Origin: Aquimarina mytili | GTDB lineage: Bacteria > Bacteroidota > Bacteroidia > Flavobacteriales > Flavobacteriaceae | DNA length: 64,000 nucleotides | NCBI RefSeq assembly: GCF_016735115.1 | Contig: NZ_JAERQJ010000006.1 | Coordinates: 124,001 to 188,000, forward strand | Direction of reading: 5' to 3' | Shown here: positions 2,735 to 25,291 of the stretch, one piece after another | Numbering within the stretch: position 1 is the stretch's first letter | Layout of the letters: each line of letters begins with the position of its first letter | The notes under the pieces: generated by a model | What the model was told of the DNA's origin: nothing | Database searches by the model: none | Seen by the model: only the letters and a program-made list of their open reading frames with translations | Position numbers and translations under genes: made by a program

Positions 2735-3256
2735 ATGTCAAAATGGGTTGTATGTATTGGGATCGTATTGTTCTTTATTAACTGTAAAGGAGAGCAACAA
2801 GTTGCACTTGAGGCTACTGATGTTTTTAAGAGCAAAGGTGTAGAGATACCTATATATGATTTTAAAAGCTTTGAGCCTTTATTAAAGATCAATGACGGAA
2901 AAACAAGGGTGATTAATTTTTGGGCCACGTGGTGTAAACCATGTGTTGCTGAATTGCCTTATTTTGAATTGATAAATAGTAGATATCCTTATAATGAGGT
3001 TGAGGTTATATTAGTTAGTTTAGATTTACCAGGGCATATTGAAGGTAAGCTTATTCCTTTTGTGAAAAAACAAAAAATTGAAAGCAAAGTAATTTTATTA
3101 GATGATCCAGATGCTAATAGTTGGATTCCTAAAGTAAGTAAAGAATGGTCAGGTTCTATACCGGCGACGATAATATATAATGGAAATACAAGCAAGTTTT
3201 TTGAACGATCTTTTACATATAATGAGTTAGAGAAAGAATTGAAAAAAATGCTTTAA
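2735..3256 (+). CDS. TlpA/ResA-like thioredoxin-fold lipoprotein
   Basis: 173 residues from the ATG at 2735, which directly precedes a lipoprotein signal (WVVCIGIVLFFINC, lipobox Cys 17). The thioredoxin fold carries the redox motif WCKPC (Cys67, Cys70) in INFWATWCKPCVAELP and the cis-Pro region SIPATIIYN. Family members reduce or oxidise disulfides of exported proteins on the periplasmic side. The gene heads a plus-strand run with a second redoxin (31 bases later) and two rhodaneses, suggesting envelope thiol/sulfur redox work. An earlier in-frame start at 2687 would add a non-signal extension and is rejected. Confidence 0.88.
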   Translation: MSKWVVCIGIVLFFINCKGEQQVALEATDVFKSKGVEIPIYDFKSFEPLLKINDGKTRVINFWATWCKPCVAELPYFELINSRYPYNEVEVILVSLDLPGHIEGKLIPFVKKQKIESKVILLDDPDANSWIPKVSKEWSGSIPATIIYNGNTSKFFERSFTYNELEKELKKML

Positions 3257-3287
3257 AAAAATGGATTAAGTACAATACACCATAACT

Positions 3288-4817: not shown

Positions 4818-4830
4818 TGTGGAGTCGGAG
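4818..4830. repeat. att core copy, outer left
   Basis: TGTGGAGTCGGAG, identical over 13 bases to 24894-24906. It follows the core-genome terminator at 4778-4811 and so is the likely true attL of the island or of the oldest insertion. Confidence 0.7.
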
Positions 4831-4916
4831 AAGGCTGAAGTGTTAAGAATTGATCCGGTGGATCAATTTAGCGCAAGCGCCAGCTGATGTGCCTGCGGAA
4901 TCCCCCGAAAGCACAA

Positions 4917-4938
4917 AATCCTGCCATTTGGCAGGATT
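4917..4938 (-). terminator. Hairpin adjacent to the inner left att copy
   Basis: AATCCTGCC and GGCAGGATT form a 9-bp stem around ATTT. On the minus strand it is followed by TTTG. Its place, directly beside an att core, matches the hairpins beside the other two att copies. Confidence 0.55.
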
Positions 4939-4941
4939 GAA

Positions 4942-4954
4942 GTGGAGTCGGAGG
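4942..4954. repeat. att core copy, inner left
   Basis: GTGGAGTCGGAGG, identical over 13 bases to 24895-24907 of the right junction. Either this or the copy at 4818 is the functional attL. Confidence 0.6.
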
Positions 4955-5070
4955 CTATTGAACTATTAGTGTCTTGTTAATAACAGTTTATAAATATATC
5001 AAGCTGTTAGACATCTAAATAAGGTAATTGTTTATTTTTGTTATAGTTTAGAATAGTATCTAAATATAAC

Positions 5071-5096
5071 ATAATTGTCGACTAGGTTGTCGACTA
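5071..5096 (+). repeat. Left subterminal repeat (candidate integrase arm sites)
   Basis: ATAATTGTCGAC, four variable bases (TAGG), then TTGTCGACTA. The same arrangement in the same orientation occurs at 24826-24851 near the right end. Each unit is itself a tandem of TTGTCGAC. Placement just inside both att ends suggests integrase or excisionase arm-binding sites. Confidence 0.6.
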
Positions 5097-5109
5097 TAAT
5101 ATTCAATTA

Positions 5110-6369
5110 ATGACCTCAACATTCTTTTTAAAACGTCCGAAATCTGAAAAGGAAACATTAATTATTTTTTCGTGTTACTTTAAAAGCGAAGGAAAGAAGT
5201 TTTTGTATTCTACAGGCGAGAAGATAAAACCAATAAATTGGGATCAACAGAATAAACAACCTATTCTAAAAGGTAAACATAAGACTGCAAGTAGTAGCAT
5301 TATCAAACTACAACTGAACCGATACCCAGATGCTTTTGAGTTAATACAAAATAGATGTAAAGCAATGGGAGAAGATTTTACTTCACAAATCTTAAAAAGG
5401 GAGTTTGATACCATTTTCAAGAAAGCACCAACAGGAAAGAATACGTTTTATGATGCATTTGATGAGTTTATGGACTATAAGATTAAAATGCAAGAATGGT
5501 CACCTTCTACAATTAAGCGGTATAAGAATATCAAAAACATATTACAAGATTTTGAGAAGCAAACGAGCTATAACCTAACGTTTAGCAATATAAATGAAGT
5601 TTTTCACGCAGACTTTACAGATTATTGTATGAATATTCGTGGTCATATTAATAATACGTATTCCAGAAACCTTGGACTGTTCAAGACGTTTATGTTTTGG
5701 GCTTTAAAAAAGGGATATACTTACAATAATATATTTCTAAGCTTTGAGAAGAAAAAGAGAGTTGTGACTAAACAGATAGCTTTGACTAAAATTGATTTAC
5801 AGAATCTAATGCATTATGATTTTAAAAATGAACGATTAAAGAAAGTTAGAGATGTATTTGTATTCTCTTGTGTTACAGGAATGAGGTTTGGAGAATTGCA
5901 ATTATTTGAAAAAGAAGACATAGTAAATAATTCTATTGTTTTAAAAGAGGAAAAAGATACAGAGAAAGAATCTCGTGCCATACCATTAAACGAAATATCA
6001 CTACACATTCTGCGTAAGTATGATTATCAATTACCATTGATAGCTAATCAAAAACAGAACGAATATATCAAAGAAGTTTTTAAGAAAGCAGGGTATACCG
6101 ATGAGGTAGTAAAGACGACTACAAAAGGAAAAGAGAATATACGAGTGACGATGCCATATTATGAACGTATTAGTACGCATACAGCACGTAGAACGTTTAT
6201 TACGATGATGAAAAAAGAAGGGTTATCTGATAAATTAATAGCATCGATAACAGGACATAGGGATATGAAAACGTTAAATCAGTATTATCAGGTAGATGAT
6301 GCTTCCAAAGTGGAAGCCGTAAATGAAGTTTTTAACATGGATATTGGTCTATTAAAGAGAGTGAATTAA
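5110..6369 (+). CDS. Tyrosine-type site-specific integrase
   Basis: 419 residues. The N-terminal arm-binding region (about 1-100) begins FFLKRPKSEKETLIIFSCYFKSEGKKFLYSTGEKI, as in Bacteroidetes integrases. A SAM-like core-binding domain follows (about 110-215). The catalytic domain has Arg259 (TGMRFGEL), His357-x-x-Arg360 (HTARRTF), His383 (TGHRDMKT) and Tyr392. All catalytic residues are present, so it should be active in integration and excision of the island at ssrA. The gene is transcribed inward and its stop abuts the start of the next gene, suggesting coexpression. Confidence 0.95.
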   Translation: MTSTFFLKRPKSEKETLIIFSCYFKSEGKKFLYSTGEKIKPINWDQQNKQPILKGKHKTASSSIIKLQLNRYPDAFELIQNRCKAMGEDFTSQILKREFDTIFKKAPTGKNTFYDAFDEFMDYKIKMQEWSPSTIKRYKNIKNILQDFEKQTSYNLTFSNINEVFHADFTDYCMNIRGHINNTYSRNLGLFKTFMFWALKKGYTYNNIFLSFEKKKRVVTKQIALTKIDLQNLMHYDFKNERLKKVRDVFVFSCVTGMRFGELQLFEKEDIVNNSIVLKEEKDTEKESRAIPLNEISLHILRKYDYQLPLIANQKQNEYIKEVFKKAGYTDEVVKTTTKGKENIRVTMPYYERISTHTARRTFITMMKKEGLSDKLIASITGHRDMKTLNQYYQVDDASKVEAVNEVFNMDIGLLKRVN

Positions 6370-18960: not shown

Positions 18961-18987
18961 GTGTTTCTGCGAAATAACCCAAAATAA
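18961..18987 (+). other. Eight-codon leader ORF with strong Shine-Dalgarno, overlapping the next start
   Basis: AAGGAGG (18949-18955 region) lies about five bases before GTG at 18961, opening VFLRNNPK and stopping with TAA at 18985-18987, which shares its last base with the ATG of the GHKL-nuclease. Strong Shine-Dalgarno sequences are rare elsewhere in this window. It could couple translation by termination-reinitiation. Confidence 0.35.
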
Positions 18988-21002
18988 TGAAAAAACATAC
19001 AGCCAAAATAACCTCAAAAAGTATTGAGCAAAGTGGGCTTCCTAATGATTATAAAATAGCTATAGCAGAGTATATTTGGAATGGTTTTGATGCGAATGCT
19101 TCTAAAGTTGATATTAATTTTGATGCGAATGAGGTAACTTATATCAATCATTTTTCAATTAGCGATAATGGTTCTGGTATTGACATTTCAACGTTAGAAG
19201 ATACATTTGGTAATTTTTTAGATTCTCAAAAAGCAAACTCTTTTTCAACTACAGGATTTGTAAAAGGTAAAAAAGGAAAAGGTAGATATTCATTTGCTTC
19301 TTTCTGCAATAAGGTAAAATGGGATACTACTTTTGAAAATAAGGAAAAGTTTTTGAACTATACAATTGAGATTGAGAAAACAGATAGCGTTAATTACACG
19401 GTGTCAGAAGAAAAAAAGATTCAAACCTCTGGGACAGGTACTAAAGTTGTTTTTGATGGCTTTTTTGGTCTTACCAGTGATTTACTAGAATCTGAAGATT
19501 TTATTGAGTTTCTTGCTCGTGAATTTGGATGGTTCTTATTTTTAAACAAAGATAAAAATTATAGCCTCACCCTGAATGGGGTTGAAATTGATTATAGCTC
19601 AATCATTGCGGATACTGATACTTTTGATTTAGATGTTGGTGAATATGATTTTAGAATAAGTTATATCAGATGGTCTAAGAATATTGGTGATAAATATTAT
19701 TATTACTTTTTGGATAATGATAAGTTGGAAAAAGGAAGAAAGCATACTTCATTTAATAATAGAGGAATTGACTTTCATCATTCCTTGTATATCCAATCCA
19801 ATTACTTTGATTCTTTTAAGGAGACCAAAGTCGATATGCCTACTTTGAGTTTTCAGATTAATCAAACTGATGGCACATTTAAATCTCTAATAAGTCAATT
19901 AAACTTATTTCTAAGTAATAAAGAAAAACAGTTTATTAAAGAAAATAAGGCTGATGAACTGATAACTAGTTATTACAAAAAAGGTATTTTTCCTAAATTT
20001 AAAGCAAATGCTTATGAAAAATTAAGGCAGCAAGATTTAGAAAATGTGGTTAAGGAAATATATTGTGCGGAACCTAAAATATTTCAAAACCTTAATACTA
20101 CTCAAAGTAAAACATTGGTAGGTTTTTTAAATCTTTTGCTTGATACTGAAGAAAGGGATAATATATTATTAATTTTAGAAAACATTATAAAATTAAGTGA
20201 AGAGGAAAGAACAGAATTAGCTGAGGTTTTAGAAAATACACAACTTCAACGTATTATAACTTTAGTAAAGTTTTTGGAGCATCGTCATTACGTGGTAAAA
20301 GTATTAAAGACACTTGTTTATGATCTTGAAAAATTTACTAATGAAAGGGATCATATCCAGAAGGTAATTGAAGCAAACTATTGGTTATTTGGAGAGCAAT
20401 ATCATATTGTTTCCGCAGATAAAAATTTCGAAATATTGCTTAATAACTATTTGCAGTTTATTAAGGATAAAGGCGAAAAACCAGTTGTTAAGAAGCTTAA
20501 TAGAAAAAATAAACTTAAAAGACCTGATATATTTATATGTAGAAAAGTGTATACCCCAGATCCAAATTCAAAGGAAGATACTATTGAGGAAAATATTATT
20601 GTGGAATTAAAAAGACCTTCAGTAGTAATTGGAGATAAGCAGTTTAGACAGATTGAAGGTTATTTGAGGTATATAGTGGAGGAAGAACAATTTAATAGTC
20701 AAAACAGGAAATGGAAATTCCTTCTTATTGGTAAAAAAGTAGATAGCTACATTATAGATTTGTATGAGAATCAGAAAAATAAGAGCAAAAAATTTCTAGT
20801 ACAGTCAATAAGGAATTTTGAAATTTATGCAATGACTTGGGATGATATATTCACCAATTACCATCTTAAAAATAGACATTTAATTGATAAACTAGAGTTT
20901 AAGGATACAGTACTCGAAGAACTTAAAGAGAAAGGTATTTCACTAGATAAAGAGGCATCTAATGTGTTAACGATGCAAATTAGTAGTGATCAAGCAAGTT
21001 AA
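18987..21002 (+). CDS. GHKL ATPase fused to a PD-(D/E)XK (DUF4263/Shedu-like) nuclease, defence candidate
   Basis: 671 residues. The N-terminal GHKL ATPase has an N-box (EYIWNGFDANA, Glu28-Asn32), a G1 box DNGSGI (Asp60) and a glycine loop GKKGKGRYSF (94-103); all look intact. The middle is helical. The C-terminal part has IQKVIEANYWLFGEQY followed by RPDIFICRK (Asp514) and NIIVELKRP (Glu540-x-Lys542), a PD-(D/E)XK nuclease core resembling that of DUF4263/Shedu proteins. The architecture suggests an ATP-gated nuclease acting on invading DNA. It is separate from the next operon by a 324-base spacer. No methyltransferase is nearby. Domain calls are fairly secure; the defence role is inference. 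Confidence 0.8.
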   Translation: MKKHTAKITSKSIEQSGLPNDYKIAIAEYIWNGFDANASKVDINFDANEVTYINHFSISDNGSGIDISTLEDTFGNFLDSQKANSFSTTGFVKGKKGKGRYSFASFCNKVKWDTTFENKEKFLNYTIEIEKTDSVNYTVSEEKKIQTSGTGTKVVFDGFFGLTSDLLESEDFIEFLAREFGWFLFLNKDKNYSLTLNGVEIDYSSIIADTDTFDLDVGEYDFRISYIRWSKNIGDKYYYYFLDNDKLEKGRKHTSFNNRGIDFHHSLYIQSNYFDSFKETKVDMPTLSFQINQTDGTFKSLISQLNLFLSNKEKQFIKENKADELITSYYKKGIFPKFKANAYEKLRQQDLENVVKEIYCAEPKIFQNLNTTQSKTLVGFLNLLLDTEERDNILLILENIIKLSEEERTELAEVLENTQLQRIITLVKFLEHRHYVVKVLKTLVYDLEKFTNERDHIQKVIEANYWLFGEQYHIVSADKNFEILLNNYLQFIKDKGEKPVVKKLNRKNKLKRPDIFICRKVYTPDPNSKEDTIEENIIVELKRPSVVIGDKQFRQIEGYLRYIVEEEQFNSQNRKWKFLLIGKKVDSYIIDLYENQKNKSKKFLVQSIRNFEIYAMTWDDIFTNYHLKNRHLIDKLEFKDTVLEELKEKGISLDKEASNVLTMQISSDQAS

Positions 21003-21338
21003 ATAAAATAAACGATTTTAACTGTTATATGCTAGATTTAGCAGAATAGATATATGAAATCATAAAGCATTACCGGTATGATTTTACCTGAAAGGAAAAT
21101 AATGAATTTTGCAGATGTTTTTGTTAATGGATTAGATGGTTGGAAGACAAATTAATTAATATGCTTGTGACAAAAAATATGTTTATTTGTTTCTATTCTG
21201 TTAAAAATAGGAAATCTAAAAATTATTTATATATCTGAAAATCAGATATTTAAAATGAATTATTATATAGTGGTTAAAAATGAAATGAGCCTTATTAATA
21301 TTATAATTAAATAATATAAGTGCAGTGTGACATTTACT
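21003..21338. other. Spacer between the two defence-like modules with an inverted repeat
   Basis: No supported gene; a 25-codon frame (MILPERKIMNFADVFVNG...) at about 21078-21155 could be a remnant. The inverted repeat ATATCTGA-AAA-TCAGATAT at 21231-21249 lies about 90 bases before the nuclease start and could be an operator or a weak terminator. The remainder is very AT-rich, as expected for the promoter of the four-gene operon. Confidence 0.5.
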
Positions 21339-22934
21339 ATGATTAATTTAAATAAATATGAATCTTTTATTCTAAAGTCTCTTGAAGATAAAAATGTAAA
21401 GGTAAGTAATGAATTATGTCAGCTTCTTGAAGACTCTTTTAAAATAACAAACAATAATGCTCGTAAAATAATACAACGTGCAACTCAAAAAGGTGTAATT
21501 AAATCTTCAACACCTTTAACTTTTGGTAAAGGGCAATATGCTTACTGCCAGCCTAATACCAGTTTTACAAAAGATAGAATAAAGATAATTTGTAAAAAAC
21601 ATAGACCAACATTGTATCGTTTGCTTGTTGCTTTAGATATAAGCGATGGTATTTTGTCTTATTATGAAGCATTAAAAATCACAGCTTCACCACTGATAAA
21701 GGGTATTTCAAAAGTTGATTATCTGGATGATTTAATTACGTTATTATCGAAATTTGAGATTGTATATCAAAAGGTTGATAAAAATTTAGTTAAGTATATT
21801 ATTTTAAAAAGAAAACAGAAAGACGAAGAGAGTCTAATGCACATCCATTATGCTAAAATGTCCACAGACACAGCATTTATAAAGGATATTATTGATTGGA
21901 TAGTTAAATCTAATTTGATTGACAATAAGAATATTATTTATAGAAATAAAAACAATCCTTCAAAAGGTGCTAAACATAACAATTTAGTTTGGGATGCTTT
22001 TGGTTATACAAAGACTACAGGTATAAATCCTTCTCTTGCCAAAGATTCTAATATCCCAGAGAAACAAACTTTAGTTGTATTTGACGTGTTAATAAGTAGA
22101 GATTATGAGCAAATAGATTTAGATGGCTTTTTAAATCGCATACAAATTAATCTTAATTCGGTTTCTAAAGGAAAGCGTAAAGTTGTACCAATAATTGTAT
22201 ATAAGAATTGTTCGGGTTTAATTTTAAACAAGATTAAAAAGTTAGGCTTTTTAAGTTATGATATTGGTTCAATATATGGGTCAAATATATTTAGTGTTTT
22301 AGAGAACATATCTAAACTTCAAATCAATAAAAAGTTATTAGAAGAAGATGATTTTGAAAAGATTATTGAAGATACGCTCACAACAATTGATGTTTCTGGA
22401 CAAGGCGATCAATTGAAAGCTATTAAAGGGACACTCTTTGAAGTTATTATGTATCAAGTATTAAAACATCAATATCCAAATGCGGAGATAAAACCTAATT
22501 TCTATTTCTCTAAAAATATTACCAATAAAAAAGATAATACCATTACAACTGAGGGTTATGAATATGATTATGTGATTAAGTCTTCTAATCCTAAAGAGAT
22601 TATTGTCGTTGAGTTAAAGGGTTACAAATCAACTTATGCAATACCATTAGGTGATTACAAAACAAAAAATACAATTAGTTGGTTTTTTAGAAAGACACTT
22701 CCATTTATTAAAGAAAAGTTCAAAAAAGATATTGGTGAAGGCTACGTTTTTAAAGGTTGTTATATATCATCAAGTGAATACACCAAAGAGGCTATTGAAG
22801 ACTTAGATAAATTAAAAGGGGGTAGTTTAAAGCCAAAGAGATTAGATATATATTACAATAGGCAAAAACTGTTTGATTTTCTAATTGAAAATGACTTTAA
22901 AAATTTGAAAAGTATAATTGAGAAATTTTATTAA
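21339..22934 (+). CDS. PD-(D/E)XK restriction-like nuclease with N-terminal winged helix
   Basis: 531 residues from the ATG at 21339 (a GTG at 21327 is also in frame). The N-terminus (about 1-75) reads like a winged helix: NNNARKIIQRATQKGVIKSSTPLTFGKGQYAYC. The C-terminal third carries KGTLFEVIMYQVLKHQYP (Glu368), YEYDYVIKS (Asp410) and EIIVVELKGYKS (Glu425-x-Lys427), a complete PD-(D/E)XK active site as in restriction endonucleases and Mrr-like enzymes. It is the first gene of a tight operon: 10 bases to the next gene, then two 4-base overlaps. No modification enzyme accompanies it, so target discrimination must work otherwise. The family has no name that I recognise. Confidence 0.75.
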   Translation: MINLNKYESFILKSLEDKNVKVSNELCQLLEDSFKITNNNARKIIQRATQKGVIKSSTPLTFGKGQYAYCQPNTSFTKDRIKIICKKHRPTLYRLLVALDISDGILSYYEALKITASPLIKGISKVDYLDDLITLLSKFEIVYQKVDKNLVKYIILKRKQKDEESLMHIHYAKMSTDTAFIKDIIDWIVKSNLIDNKNIIYRNKNNPSKGAKHNNLVWDAFGYTKTTGINPSLAKDSNIPEKQTLVVFDVLISRDYEQIDLDGFLNRIQINLNSVSKGKRKVVPIIVYKNCSGLILNKIKKLGFLSYDIGSIYGSNIFSVLENISKLQINKKLLEEDDFEKIIEDTLTTIDVSGQGDQLKAIKGTLFEVIMYQVLKHQYPNAEIKPNFYFSKNITNKKDNTITTEGYEYDYVIKSSNPKEIIVVELKGYKSTYAIPLGDYKTKNTISWFFRKTLPFIKEKFKKDIGEGYVFKGCYISSSEYTKEAIEDLDKLKGGSLKPKRLDIYYNRQKLFDFLIENDFKNLKSIIEKFY

Positions 22935-22944
22935 ATAATATAAT

Positions 22945-23454
22945 ATGGCAAATATTTTAGGATTACACTGCTCAGTACTCAAGGGTTATGGGAAATTAGC
23001 AGTAGTAATACTTACAGAAGAGGATGAAATTATAACTAATGTATTTAGAAGCCCATCAGTATTTTCATTTAAAATAAATATTGGAGAAATTCTTAATTGG
23101 CATAAAGACAATATAATTTCACTCATAAACCTATACAATATAGATGCAATTGTGGTAAAAAAAACTGAACGTAATTCTTTTAACAGTAGACCAAAAAATT
23201 CAGATTTTTTTAAGCTATATCTTGAAGGAGTTATGCTTTCTTTAGCTGGTAGCTATAATATGAAAAATAGACATTTAGAAAAGGCTTCAATAAAATCACT
23301 TCTTAATAACAATGATATTTACGACCTTGACTTAGAGCAATTGCAAAAAGATTATAACCTTAAATTAGACATACAGCCTACAAGATTAAATATTCCACCA
23401 ATAAAAGAATCATTTTTAGCAGTACTTGCTTATAAAAATTATTTAGAATTATGA
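22945..23454 (+). CDS. RNase H/RuvC-fold-like small protein
   Basis: 169 residues. The start ANILGLHCSVLKGYGKLAVVILTEEDEIITNVFRSP has the two-strand opening of RNase H-fold/RuvC-like proteins (compare DUF3010), followed by LINLYNIDAIVVKKTERNSF, FKLYLEGVMLSLAGSYN and a C-terminal ESFLAVLAYKNYLEL reminiscent of the D-A-x-A-x-A end of such folds. The canonical first acidic residue is not evident (His/Cys at positions 8-9), so catalysis is uncertain. It lies between the nuclease and the kinase and overlaps the latter by four bases, implying coupled translation. Fold assignment is tentative. Confidence 0.55.
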   Translation: MANILGLHCSVLKGYGKLAVVILTEEDEIITNVFRSPSVFSFKINIGEILNWHKDNIISLINLYNIDAIVVKKTERNSFNSRPKNSDFFKLYLEGVMLSLAGSYNMKNRHLEKASIKSLLNNNDIYDLDLEQLQKDYNLKLDIQPTRLNIPPIKESFLAVLAYKNYLEL

Positions 23455-24599
23455 TATTAACAACTGTAGAAATTGAGAAAATAAAAGATTTTGATGAACA
23501 AGGATTTTTTAGTTCTACGTATCTGGCTATGGATACTCGACTCGAAAGAGAAGTAGCAGTAAAAGATATTAACGTAAATGGAAAGGTAAAAGATGAAGAA
23601 ATAGAACAGTTTTTTCACGAAGCGTTAAAACTTTCACGCTCTGAACATCCACGTATTCTACCCATTTATTTTGTAGGTTTTTGTGATACTGAAGATAATG
23701 AAAATGTAATACCAAGAGTAGTAACAAAATATATGAAGAACGGTACTCTTAGTAGTGTTCTTAAATCGCATTATAATACTGGTTATACATTTCCGTTAGA
23801 TACTATTATCAGATATGCTCACGATATTATTCAAAGTTTAATACATCTTCATTCTTTAGATATTTTACATTTGGATTTAAAAGCATCTAATATATTTATT
23901 GGTAATGATGGTAAATTAGTTGTAGGTGATTTTGGCCAGTCACGTTTTTTAGTAGATGGTTTAACTGTTGATGCTGAAAATTTATACCCGGCATTAATTC
24001 CAGACGAATTTACTAAAAAAGGTGTTGTAGATAAAACCGCTGATATATATCAATTCGGAATCCTTTTTTATAGTATGTGTTGCTATGACTACTACAGAAA
24101 CTTTTTAGAAGATGATTATGAAATTGATGTTGAGGTGTTAAAAGGTTTATTTGGCAATCCTGAAGAGAAAGATAAGGATGCTATTAAAAAATTTGGAGCA
24201 AATCTCAAAAGATATAAGCAGGATGTTAAAGAAGGTCTATATGCAGATGGTAGTAATTATTATAATTATATTCCTGGTAAGATAATTGCTATTATAGAAA
24301 GATGTGTTGCACATAAAGTTGAGAATAGGTATAATAATTTTTATGAAGTTCAAAGCGATTTAAATGAACTTGTCTTCCCTTCAGGTGTTTCATCATATAG
24401 CGAAGAAATTGGTCAAAATTCTATTGTTTTTAAAAAGGATGATGTTGATTGTATTATTAATTATGAGAAAAATGAAGATTCAAAAAAATATCGTTTAGTG
24501 CCAAGAAAAAATATCCAGGAGGTTACTCGAAAAATTAAAGAAAAAGTCACAGATAGAACACTTAGAAAAGAAATTCTTAAATTAGCAGATAGCTTATGA
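23451..24599 (+). CDS. Eukaryotic-like Ser/Thr protein kinase, defence-operon member
   Basis: 382 residues. The kinase domain spans about 5-310: catalytic Lys38 (REVAVKDI), Glu in EALKLSRSEHPRILP, catalytic loop HLDLKASN (His140, Asp142) and DFGQS (Asp160). The glycine-rich loop is degenerate (DEQGFFSSTYLA), but the essential Lys and Asp residues are kept, so activity is likely. There is no transmembrane segment or sensory domain; a C-terminal tail of about 70 residues has a basic helix (RKIKEKVTDRTLRKEI). It overlaps the genes before and after it by four bases each. Kinases in phage-defence clusters can respond to infection by phosphorylating partners; the nuclease or RuvC-like protein are obvious candidates here. 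Confidence 0.85.
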   Translation: MILTTVEIEKIKDFDEQGFFSSTYLAMDTRLEREVAVKDINVNGKVKDEEIEQFFHEALKLSRSEHPRILPIYFVGFCDTEDNENVIPRVVTKYMKNGTLSSVLKSHYNTGYTFPLDTIIRYAHDIIQSLIHLHSLDILHLDLKASNIFIGNDGKLVVGDFGQSRFLVDGLTVDAENLYPALIPDEFTKKGVVDKTADIYQFGILFYSMCCYDYYRNFLEDDYEIDVEVLKGLFGNPEEKDKDAIKKFGANLKRYKQDVKEGLYADGSNYYNYIPGKIIAIIERCVAHKVENRYNNFYEVQSDLNELVFPSGVSSYSEEIGQNSIVFKKDDVDCIINYEKNEDSKKYRLVPRKNIQEVTRKIKEKVTDRTLRKEILKLADSL

Positions 24600-24772
24600 G
24601 TAAACATAATTGTAAATATTGTGATAGAGAAATGAATGTTAGTAGTTTGGCATATAAGTCGAATAGCTACTGTAATGTTTGTTTTGATGACCGTGTTAAA
24701 GCTTCTGGTTTAAAAAAAGAAGAGGATAACCTTGTATTTACGTACAACGGTATTTCGGTTCAAATAGATTAA
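24596..24772 (+). CDS. Small zinc-ribbon protein, last gene of the kinase/nuclease operon
   Basis: 58 residues, starting with ATG at 24596 that overlaps the kinase stop by four bases. It begins MSKHNCKYCDREMNVSS and has CNVC about 20 residues later, giving two CxxC knuckles (Cys6/Cys9 and Cys26/Cys29) for one zinc, then a short hydrophilic tail ending NGISVQID. The ORF is below usual length cutoffs and easily missed. Translational coupling to the kinase and conserved cysteines argue it is real; it may be an adaptor or nucleic-acid/protein sensor of the system. The function is unknown. Confidence 0.75.
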   Translation: MSKHNCKYCDREMNVSSLAYKSNSYCNVCFDDRVKASGLKKEEDNLVFTYNGISVQID

Positions 24773-24894: not shown

Positions 24895-24906
24895 GTGGAG
24901 TCGGAG
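24894..24906. repeat. att core copy, right junction (within ssrA 3' end)
   Basis: TGTGGAGTCGGAG; most of it encodes the tmRNA acceptor stem. It is identical to 4818-4830. Confidence 0.8.
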
Positions 24907-25291
24907 GGATTCGAACCCTCGTCCAAACAAGTAACAAAATAGCTTTCTACACGTTTAGTTTTTGTTTAGTTTTCGACGATATGAAAGACCAAAAACCGCC
25001 AACGTATCGCTTATTCTCGATTAAGTTTCAAAATCATATCAAGATCCTACAATTTCTAGGTTTACTTTTACGAAGTCTCAAAATCAATCGCCGCAAACCA
25101 AGGCTATTGGGAGACTTCCTGCTTGCTCACCTTGTGAGCCGAGGCATTATCCTACTATAATTCGGATTATGCAGCTAGGGCGTAGTTATTCTCGCCGTTT
25201 AAAAAAGTGAAATATGATATTTACGAGCTATATCCCAGCGCTCGACGTGCTTACCATTCTATTAATCTCGCTGTCAAAACCAGTCGACCCC
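24896..25291 (-). ncRNA. ssrA: Transfer-messenger RNA (tmRNA)
   Basis: The minus strand starts GGGGTCGACTGGTTTTGACAG and ends with the T-arm GGTTCGAATCC and CGACTCC followed by discriminator A. GGGGUCG and CGACUCC pair as a 7-bp acceptor stem with one G-U. The tag reading frame (25196-25167) is GGC GAG AAT AAC TAC GCC CTA GCT GCA TAA, i.e. GENNYALAA then stop, the tag type of Flavobacteria and relatives. CCA is not encoded. With SmpB it rescues stalled ribosomes. The 3' end is the insertion site of the 20-kb island, and the gene looks fully reconstituted. Confidence 0.95.

Follow-up and report, generated by a model that had tools for sequence, protein, structure and literature searches.

The window analysed here is a stretch of 64,000 nucleotides from Aquimarina mytili (contig NZ_JAERQJ010000006.1, positions 124,001 to 188,000 of the forward strand). 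It carries a four-gene operon encoding a PD-(D/E)XK nuclease, a RuvC-like protein, a eukaryotic-like protein kinase of the Stk type and a small double-CxxC protein (Table 1). When the open reading frames (ORFs) were re-derived, the junctions proved to be those given in a preliminary description of this DNA, with a 10-base gap between the nuclease and RuvC-like genes and a 4-base overlap at each of the RuvC-like/kinase and kinase/CxxC junctions; an in-frame GTG at 21327 lies ahead of the nuclease ATG. The genes hsdM, hsdS and hsdR do not lie beside the operon. PADLOC returned no match up to E=1 for the nuclease and the RuvC-like protein and, for the CxxC protein, a single 28-residue match to PDC-M14A (0.0022); in NCBIfam, none of these three proteins came near a cut-off. 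The preliminary description had proposed a candidate new defence system, and much of this stands: the operon is real, sits in a candidate mobile island and is built from families of defence type, and PADLOC, NCBIfam and the open-licence literature searched yielded no known system of this composition. The recurring unit, however, is the RuvC-like protein with the kinase, not the set of four genes.

Table 1. Coordinates, within the window, of the operon and of the candidate integrative element
Feature	Position	Strand	Remark
PD-(D/E)XK nuclease, 531 amino acids from ATG	21339..22934	+	motif kept in aligned relatives
RuvC-fold pseudo-resolvase (putative), 169 amino acids, phrog_3875-like	22945..23454	+	Asp/Glu replaced by H8/K72
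Stk-type eukaryotic-like protein kinase, 382 amino acids, phrog_2361	23451..24599	+	catalytic residues present, HLD for HRD
double-CxxC protein, 58 amino acids, third gene slot	24596..24772	+	open reading frame
tmRNA gene ssrA, likely island insertion site	24895..25291	-	
candidate right attachment core GTGGAGTCGGAGG, 3' end of ssrA	24895..24907	+	13-base repeat
candidate left attachment core, same 13 bases	4942..4954	+	13-base repeat
tyrosine integrase, opposite end of candidate element	5110..6369	+	phrog_1, 6e-38

Linkage of the RuvC-like protein and the kinase

The window kinase matches Pfam Pkinase (E=6e-28) and, near full length (residues 3-364), the phrog_2361 profile (5.5e-46). The catalytic Lys, HxD and DFG elements are present, and the residues named earlier, K38, D142 (HLDLK) and D160 (DFG), were all found. 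With a phrog_3875 gene directly upstream, these features place it in the family of the Stk kinase of 933W. Twenty-two phage records were matched: 12 from Stx-type or related coliphages carrying stk, two from SPbeta-like Bacillus phages and eight from Listeria or Enterococcus; the last, mostly or all unannotated, are in our reading PASTA kinases, since one Listeria record whose match covers these residues carries the annotation pknB. The PD-T4-6 model of PADLOC, which has no stated cut-off and against which other kinases score alike, gave up to 89 bits. An 868-amino-acid kinase of Acidisarcina was not counted as Stk-type, being matched over residues 24-247 only and having no RuvC-like neighbour.

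In each of the first five Stk-type relatives opened (L013-L016 and L018), a gene of 134-168 codons, annotated or read by us, lies upstream of the kinase. In the phi24B immunity region (L018, 1484-1945), an unannotated RuvC-like ORF of 153 amino acids shares 7 bases with the beginning of stk; other records call the homologues of this ORF hypothetical protein, RuvC family protein or RuvC-like Holliday junction resolvase. The phylum searched is taken to be Bacteroidota, in view of the Flagellimonas relative. Profile searches with the RuvC-like side gave 39 viral loci, 37 of them with the Klebsiella/phi24B type and two with the SPbeta type; 12 matches in 395 genomes of the phylum (the window, four new genomes, six ordinary RuvC proteins and one unconfirmed); six in 395 genomes of the order (four more, the window and one spurious); and three on plasmids, two of which were examined. 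Two matches were set aside, a 506-amino-acid frame in genome G885 as spurious (1.8e-4) and one with an internal stop in genome G372 that our own search did not confirm.

At all 56 RuvC-like loci, a kinase gene lies directly downstream on the same strand. Six of these (the window, L013-L016 and L018) had entered through the original finding or the kinase search and 50 are free of that choice; clustering reduces the loci to 24 groups at 90% identity and to 12 at 50%. Eleven viral loci added later showed the linkage in 9/9 assessable cases, the other two stretches ending at the RuvC-like gene. One 48-row search list was examined for 30 loci (6 linked, 24 unlinked), with 18 left out. The most diverged members (L082-L084) entered at 2.6e-6 to 4e-9, no better than ordinary RuvC proteins with the later profile, and their membership rests on active-site residues and the adjoining kinase. 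The intergenic distance lay between -8 and +9 bases in 16 of 17 loci, the remaining one, in Novosphingobium, being 32 bases. RuvC-like and kinase protein distances are correlated (r=0.945 over 23 loci, 0/5000 permutations; L005, L037 and L043, with broken kinases, omitted). Of 5426 Escherichia coli genomes, 223 gave a match to the partner and, in a separate count, 222 gave one to the kinase.

A third gene slot often follows the kinase directly, with small ORFs of 50-66 amino acids from varying families; in the window it is filled by the CxxC protein. Such proteins occur at L014, L015, L016, L018, L070-L072, L081, L122-L124 and L126-L130. Those of L015, L071 and L072 have a DLGNG motif in common, and that of phi24B is phrog_4063. 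ORFs this short can arise by chance, against which stand this PHROG status and the likeness of the ORFs at related loci (L122/L123; L126/L127/L130). No homologue of the 58-amino-acid CxxC protein was found, including among the third-slot proteins elsewhere.

A predicted RuvC fold with its catalytic residues replaced

The predicted fold of the window RuvC-like protein is that of RuvC. It matches phrog_3875, a family named RuvC-like Holliday junction resolvase in PHROGs, at 1.8e-7, and four homologues lying upstream of kinases do so at 3.6e-22 to 5.9e-87. The catalytic tetrad of RuvC is D7/E66/D138/D141. In the window protein these places are taken by H8, K72, P152 and E155, and across the family the first-strand Asp is lost in 21/21 and 11/11 members, with the catalytic Glu basic in the same members. 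The D/E/D/D tetrad is present in 25/25 kinase-unlinked RuvC matches, a set chosen without a DPG-motif condition, since selection on DPG would have made the first Asp circular. Because the catalytic residues are replaced family-wide, a function as a RuvC-type nuclease is not plausible. The RuvC/RNase H-like identity first given to this protein is borne out for the fold, and the public label of Holliday junction resolvase needs correction, as the sequence gives no support for an enzyme.

The link between the window protein and the phage and plasmid members runs through profiles: tblastn of the window protein against phages and plasmids returned nothing, and viral sequences scanned with alignments built on the window's RuvC-like protein and nuclease were equally without a match. 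L083-type RuvC-like proteins had no match on plasmids, and a PDB sequence search with the family gave no RuvC chain, only chance-like matches.

The nuclease

The PD-(D/E)XK assignment made earlier holds, with D410 and E425-x-K427 located in the window protein and invariant in 5/5 aligned sequences, namely those of the window, of L005 (Flagellimonas yonaguniensis) and of three plasmid proteins of 21-27% identity. Of the plasmid proteins, one scores above the NERD cut-off (1.8e-5) and all three give sub-threshold Mrr_cat matches; the window nuclease itself matches neither model in Pfam. Its long N-terminal and middle parts are without an assigned fold, a structure model from a two-row alignment was uninformative (pLDDT 35), and its profile, run against PDB sequences, hit only a ribosomal protein (E=0.1). 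The most fitting name for the protein is a weakly Mrr-like PD-(D/E)XK nuclease. Enzymes of the Mrr type cleave modified DNA and do without a dedicated methyltransferase; even with the Mrr likeness as weak as it is here, the earlier argument that a missing methyltransferase requires activation is not forced.

Recurrence of the operon

L005 carries the nuclease, RuvC-like and kinase genes in the same order, with the 10-base gap and the 4-base overlap kept. Identity to the window is 82% for the nuclease, 69% for the RuvC-like protein and 85% for the kinase over its remaining part, and a stretch of nearly 30 bases ahead of the nuclease start codon is identical. Since order, junctions and upstream sequence recur, the operon is more than a chance arrangement. 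Of the four families whose co-occurrence was the check suggested earlier, three stand together in L005, where the fourth gene is not seen, and the recurring unit is the pair. The L005 kinase gene is broken at what we read as an insertion-sequence end (3150-3279), after which the contig stops; neither the missing rest of the kinase nor the 58-amino-acid CxxC protein was found elsewhere in that genome.

Close relatives are rare among the genomes sampled. L005 was the only locus found for the RuvC-like protein among genome contigs (1/188 pattern matches), and the window itself was the only hit for close RuvC-like relatives in the family (1/299 genomes) and for close nuclease relatives in the genus (1/27). 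For the nuclease in the phylum, 2/395 genomes were hit, the window's own and genome G444; the latter match was dropped as spurious, its frame being read as a sulfatase.

Genomic contexts of the pair

The RuvC-like/kinase pair lies within or beside several restriction systems; these are contexts as observed, not an enrichment over the background of defence genes near random genes. By Pfam, L082 has the order hsdM-hsdS-pair-hsdR; by annotation, L116 (Methylocystis) and L117 (Novosphingobium) have the same order, followed by a SprT-type protease gene. L084 (3518-11490) contains hsdS (by our reading), PycTM and PycC, the pair and hsdR, uniting a Pycsar pair and the RuvC-like/kinase pair in one locus; its RuvC-like protein and that of L082 are over 70% alike. 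At L081, C5 methylase, AAA_5 and RE_LlaJI genes precede the pair, Pfam assignments on which a reading as McrBC was rejected. At L073, the pair adjoins a helicase with a REase_MTES_1575 domain. L013 has DUF4433 and macro-domain genes beside the pair (by annotation), the former presumably DarT-type. By our own reading, the pair adjoins an integrase at L070, lies near HigBA-like and AAA genes at L071 and is followed by an FRG-like gene at L072. L014 shows prophage-type genes, with a PD-(D/E)XK gene beside recT, about 2.2 kb downstream of the pair, that we take to be a phage recombination exonuclease.

As a separate observation, a gene annotated as a GIY-YIG nuclease (4912-5862) separates hsdM from hsdS in the type I operon of L116.

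A candidate integrative element at ssrA

A gap of 122 bases separates the end of the operon from ssrA, and the features in Table 1 outline what is likely, though unproven, an integrative element of roughly 20 kb (window 4818-24907), as judged from its repeats and integrase. The left core (4942-4954) precedes the integrase gene by 155 bases, and an arm-like 12-base repeat occurs at 5071 and 24826. Queries of 17 and 22 bases from the ssrA end, allowing up to 2 or 3 mismatches, found no further copy, so the repeats are short. At 4818 there is another 13-base match to the core, offset by a single base, which may point to a further insertion.

The element also contains a gene that looks Rep-like to us, with no PHROGs match. 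Window 18987-21002, 336 bases upstream of the operon, encodes a 671-amino-acid HATPase_c_3 (GHKL-type) protein (phrog_6203, 5e-62) whose C-terminus shows a weak, sub-threshold HSDR_N-like match; the gene may be another defence gene carried by the island. Between 9136 and 17180 lie two adjacent very large genes (1292 and 1382 amino acids) that we read as YD/RHS-repeat-like, with a G+C of about 38-44%, above the surroundings; the small genes that follow them show a sub-threshold DUF6547 match and MORN repeats.

Interpretation and alternatives

On balance, we consider it somewhat probable that the operon is a two-layer anti-phage locus carried by the candidate integrative element. The weakly Mrr-like nuclease would form the first layer, probably restricting incoming DNA. 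The conserved pair would form the second, in which the RuvC-fold protein, devoid of the RuvC active site, may act as a sensor or brake, responding to junctions in DNA, to recombination proteins of phages or to the condition of the restriction complex, and the kinase, once released or activated during infection, would phosphorylate proteins and so abort the infection. The model assigns the CxxC protein no part apart from occupying the slot that other small proteins take elsewhere. The pair may be a portable backup joined to different restriction systems, much as PrrC is in a type I restriction-modification (R-M) operon.

Taken more broadly, and more tentatively, the pair could be a widespread immune module of two genes, so far unrecognised, whose charge-inverted RuvC-fold pseudo-resolvase serves as dedicated sensor or brake for an Stk-type abortive-infection kinase, guarding type I, LlaJI-type and Mrr-like restriction systems as well as prophages. 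This proposal, which we hold to be a serious possibility short of a probable one, would explain why the Stk of 933W stays silent until a foreign phage arrives, and the partner, overlooked so far, linked in every case and built on an inactive nuclease fold, offers a testable candidate, in a well-studied phage type, for what holds the kinase silent.

Several observations weigh against the two-layer reading. Only in the window and L005 does the nuclease accompany the pair, and in L005 the kinase is cut and the nuclease frame, like that of the RuvC-like gene, is open, so that either kinase and nuclease are not both needed there or the locus is decaying. In two of 39 viral loci (L037 and L043) the kinase is in two frames beside an intact RuvC-like gene. 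At L083 (genome G768), the genes around the pair are of housekeeping type and no defence gene was noticed, a context that makes a wider role possible. The correlated protein distances show shared inheritance, not physical contact, and the Stk literature, in the parts accessible, names the kinase alone and gives no role to a partner.

The preliminary description regarded a kinase switch on the nuclease as the simplest model. As a single integrated system, the kinase would phosphorylate and thereby switch the nuclease, with the RuvC-like and zinc proteins as accessory DNA-binding parts; in its favour, the operon is tight and keeps its junctions and upstream sequence across two genomes. The pair, however, recurs in prophages that lack this nuclease beside it and has been joined to restriction systems of several unrelated kinds, and at the plasmid loci of the distant nuclease relatives (L002-L004) profiles found no RuvC-like or kinase gene. 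We therefore favour a second-line role of the pair over a switch on the window nuclease, and regard the single system as rather unlikely.

Less likely again is that the pair serves the mobile element and not the host, in prophage or island maintenance, superinfection exclusion or excision control, with defence as a by-product. Many relatives lie on viral contigs, the phi24B pair sits in an immunity region, the window operon stands at the edge of the candidate element, and the known prophage kinase module KKP, as far as the accessible text goes, has both roles (PMC11341870); the embedding of the pair in type I R-M operons argues against it. Finally, it is highly improbable that the RuvC-like protein is an active, kinase-regulated resolvase or nuclease with a rearranged active site, for which the PHROGs label and the conserved E75, E94 and E155 places (acidic in 20/21, 20/21 and 21/21 members) could be cited, given the lost Asp and basic Glu in every member of both sets.

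Comparison with known systems

From the RuvC Holliday junction resolvase, the window protein differs in having H8 and K72 for the catalytic Asp and Glu. With Mrr and NERD enzymes, the nuclease has the D-ExK motif in common, yet itself matches neither model. In PADLOC, mad6 of the MADS system is the best model for the window kinase (2e-38), yet NCBIfam MAD6 gives it 62.1 bits, far under the cut-off of 460, and no methyltransferase or other mad match was found among the five window proteins scanned. Kinase-based phage defence is also known from KKP and Stk2 (PMC11341870); KKP consists of two kinases and a phosphatase and Stk2 of a single kinase, and the word RuvC is absent from the accessible text of that paper.

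The Stk of 933W and phi24B is of the same kinase family and, in phi24B, also has a RuvC-like ORF upstream. It differs in its 27% identity and in the third gene (phrog_4063), and the 3.4-kb record of the phi24B immunity region shows no nuclease gene adjoining the pair. According to the published excerpts consulted, the Stk of 933W is nearly silent before infection by HK97, is activated by that infection and mediates exclusion or abortive infection (PMC3681748, PMC6356687, PMC8008677), and stk is transcribed from pRM in stable lysogeny (PMC3430580).

Abortive infection by Stk and killer genes in R-M operons are already known; searches of the open-licence PMC literature gave no print record of the constant partner, the inverted active site or the place between hsdS and hsdR. 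PrrC is the precedent for a second-line role: in the EcoprrI type Ic R-M operon it is, in the portions of the papers seen, a latent second-line killer, silenced by the linked type Ic enzyme and freed by a phage anti-restriction peptide (PMC2610378, PMC3874165, PMC3710099). PrrC differs in being an ABC-ATPase anticodon nuclease, and the window operon has no adjoining hsd genes; the likeness lies in the four relatives of the pair that sit between hsdS and hsdR (L082, L084, L116 and L117). If the proposal is true, a kinase-based guard would be added to the killer genes known from restriction operons.

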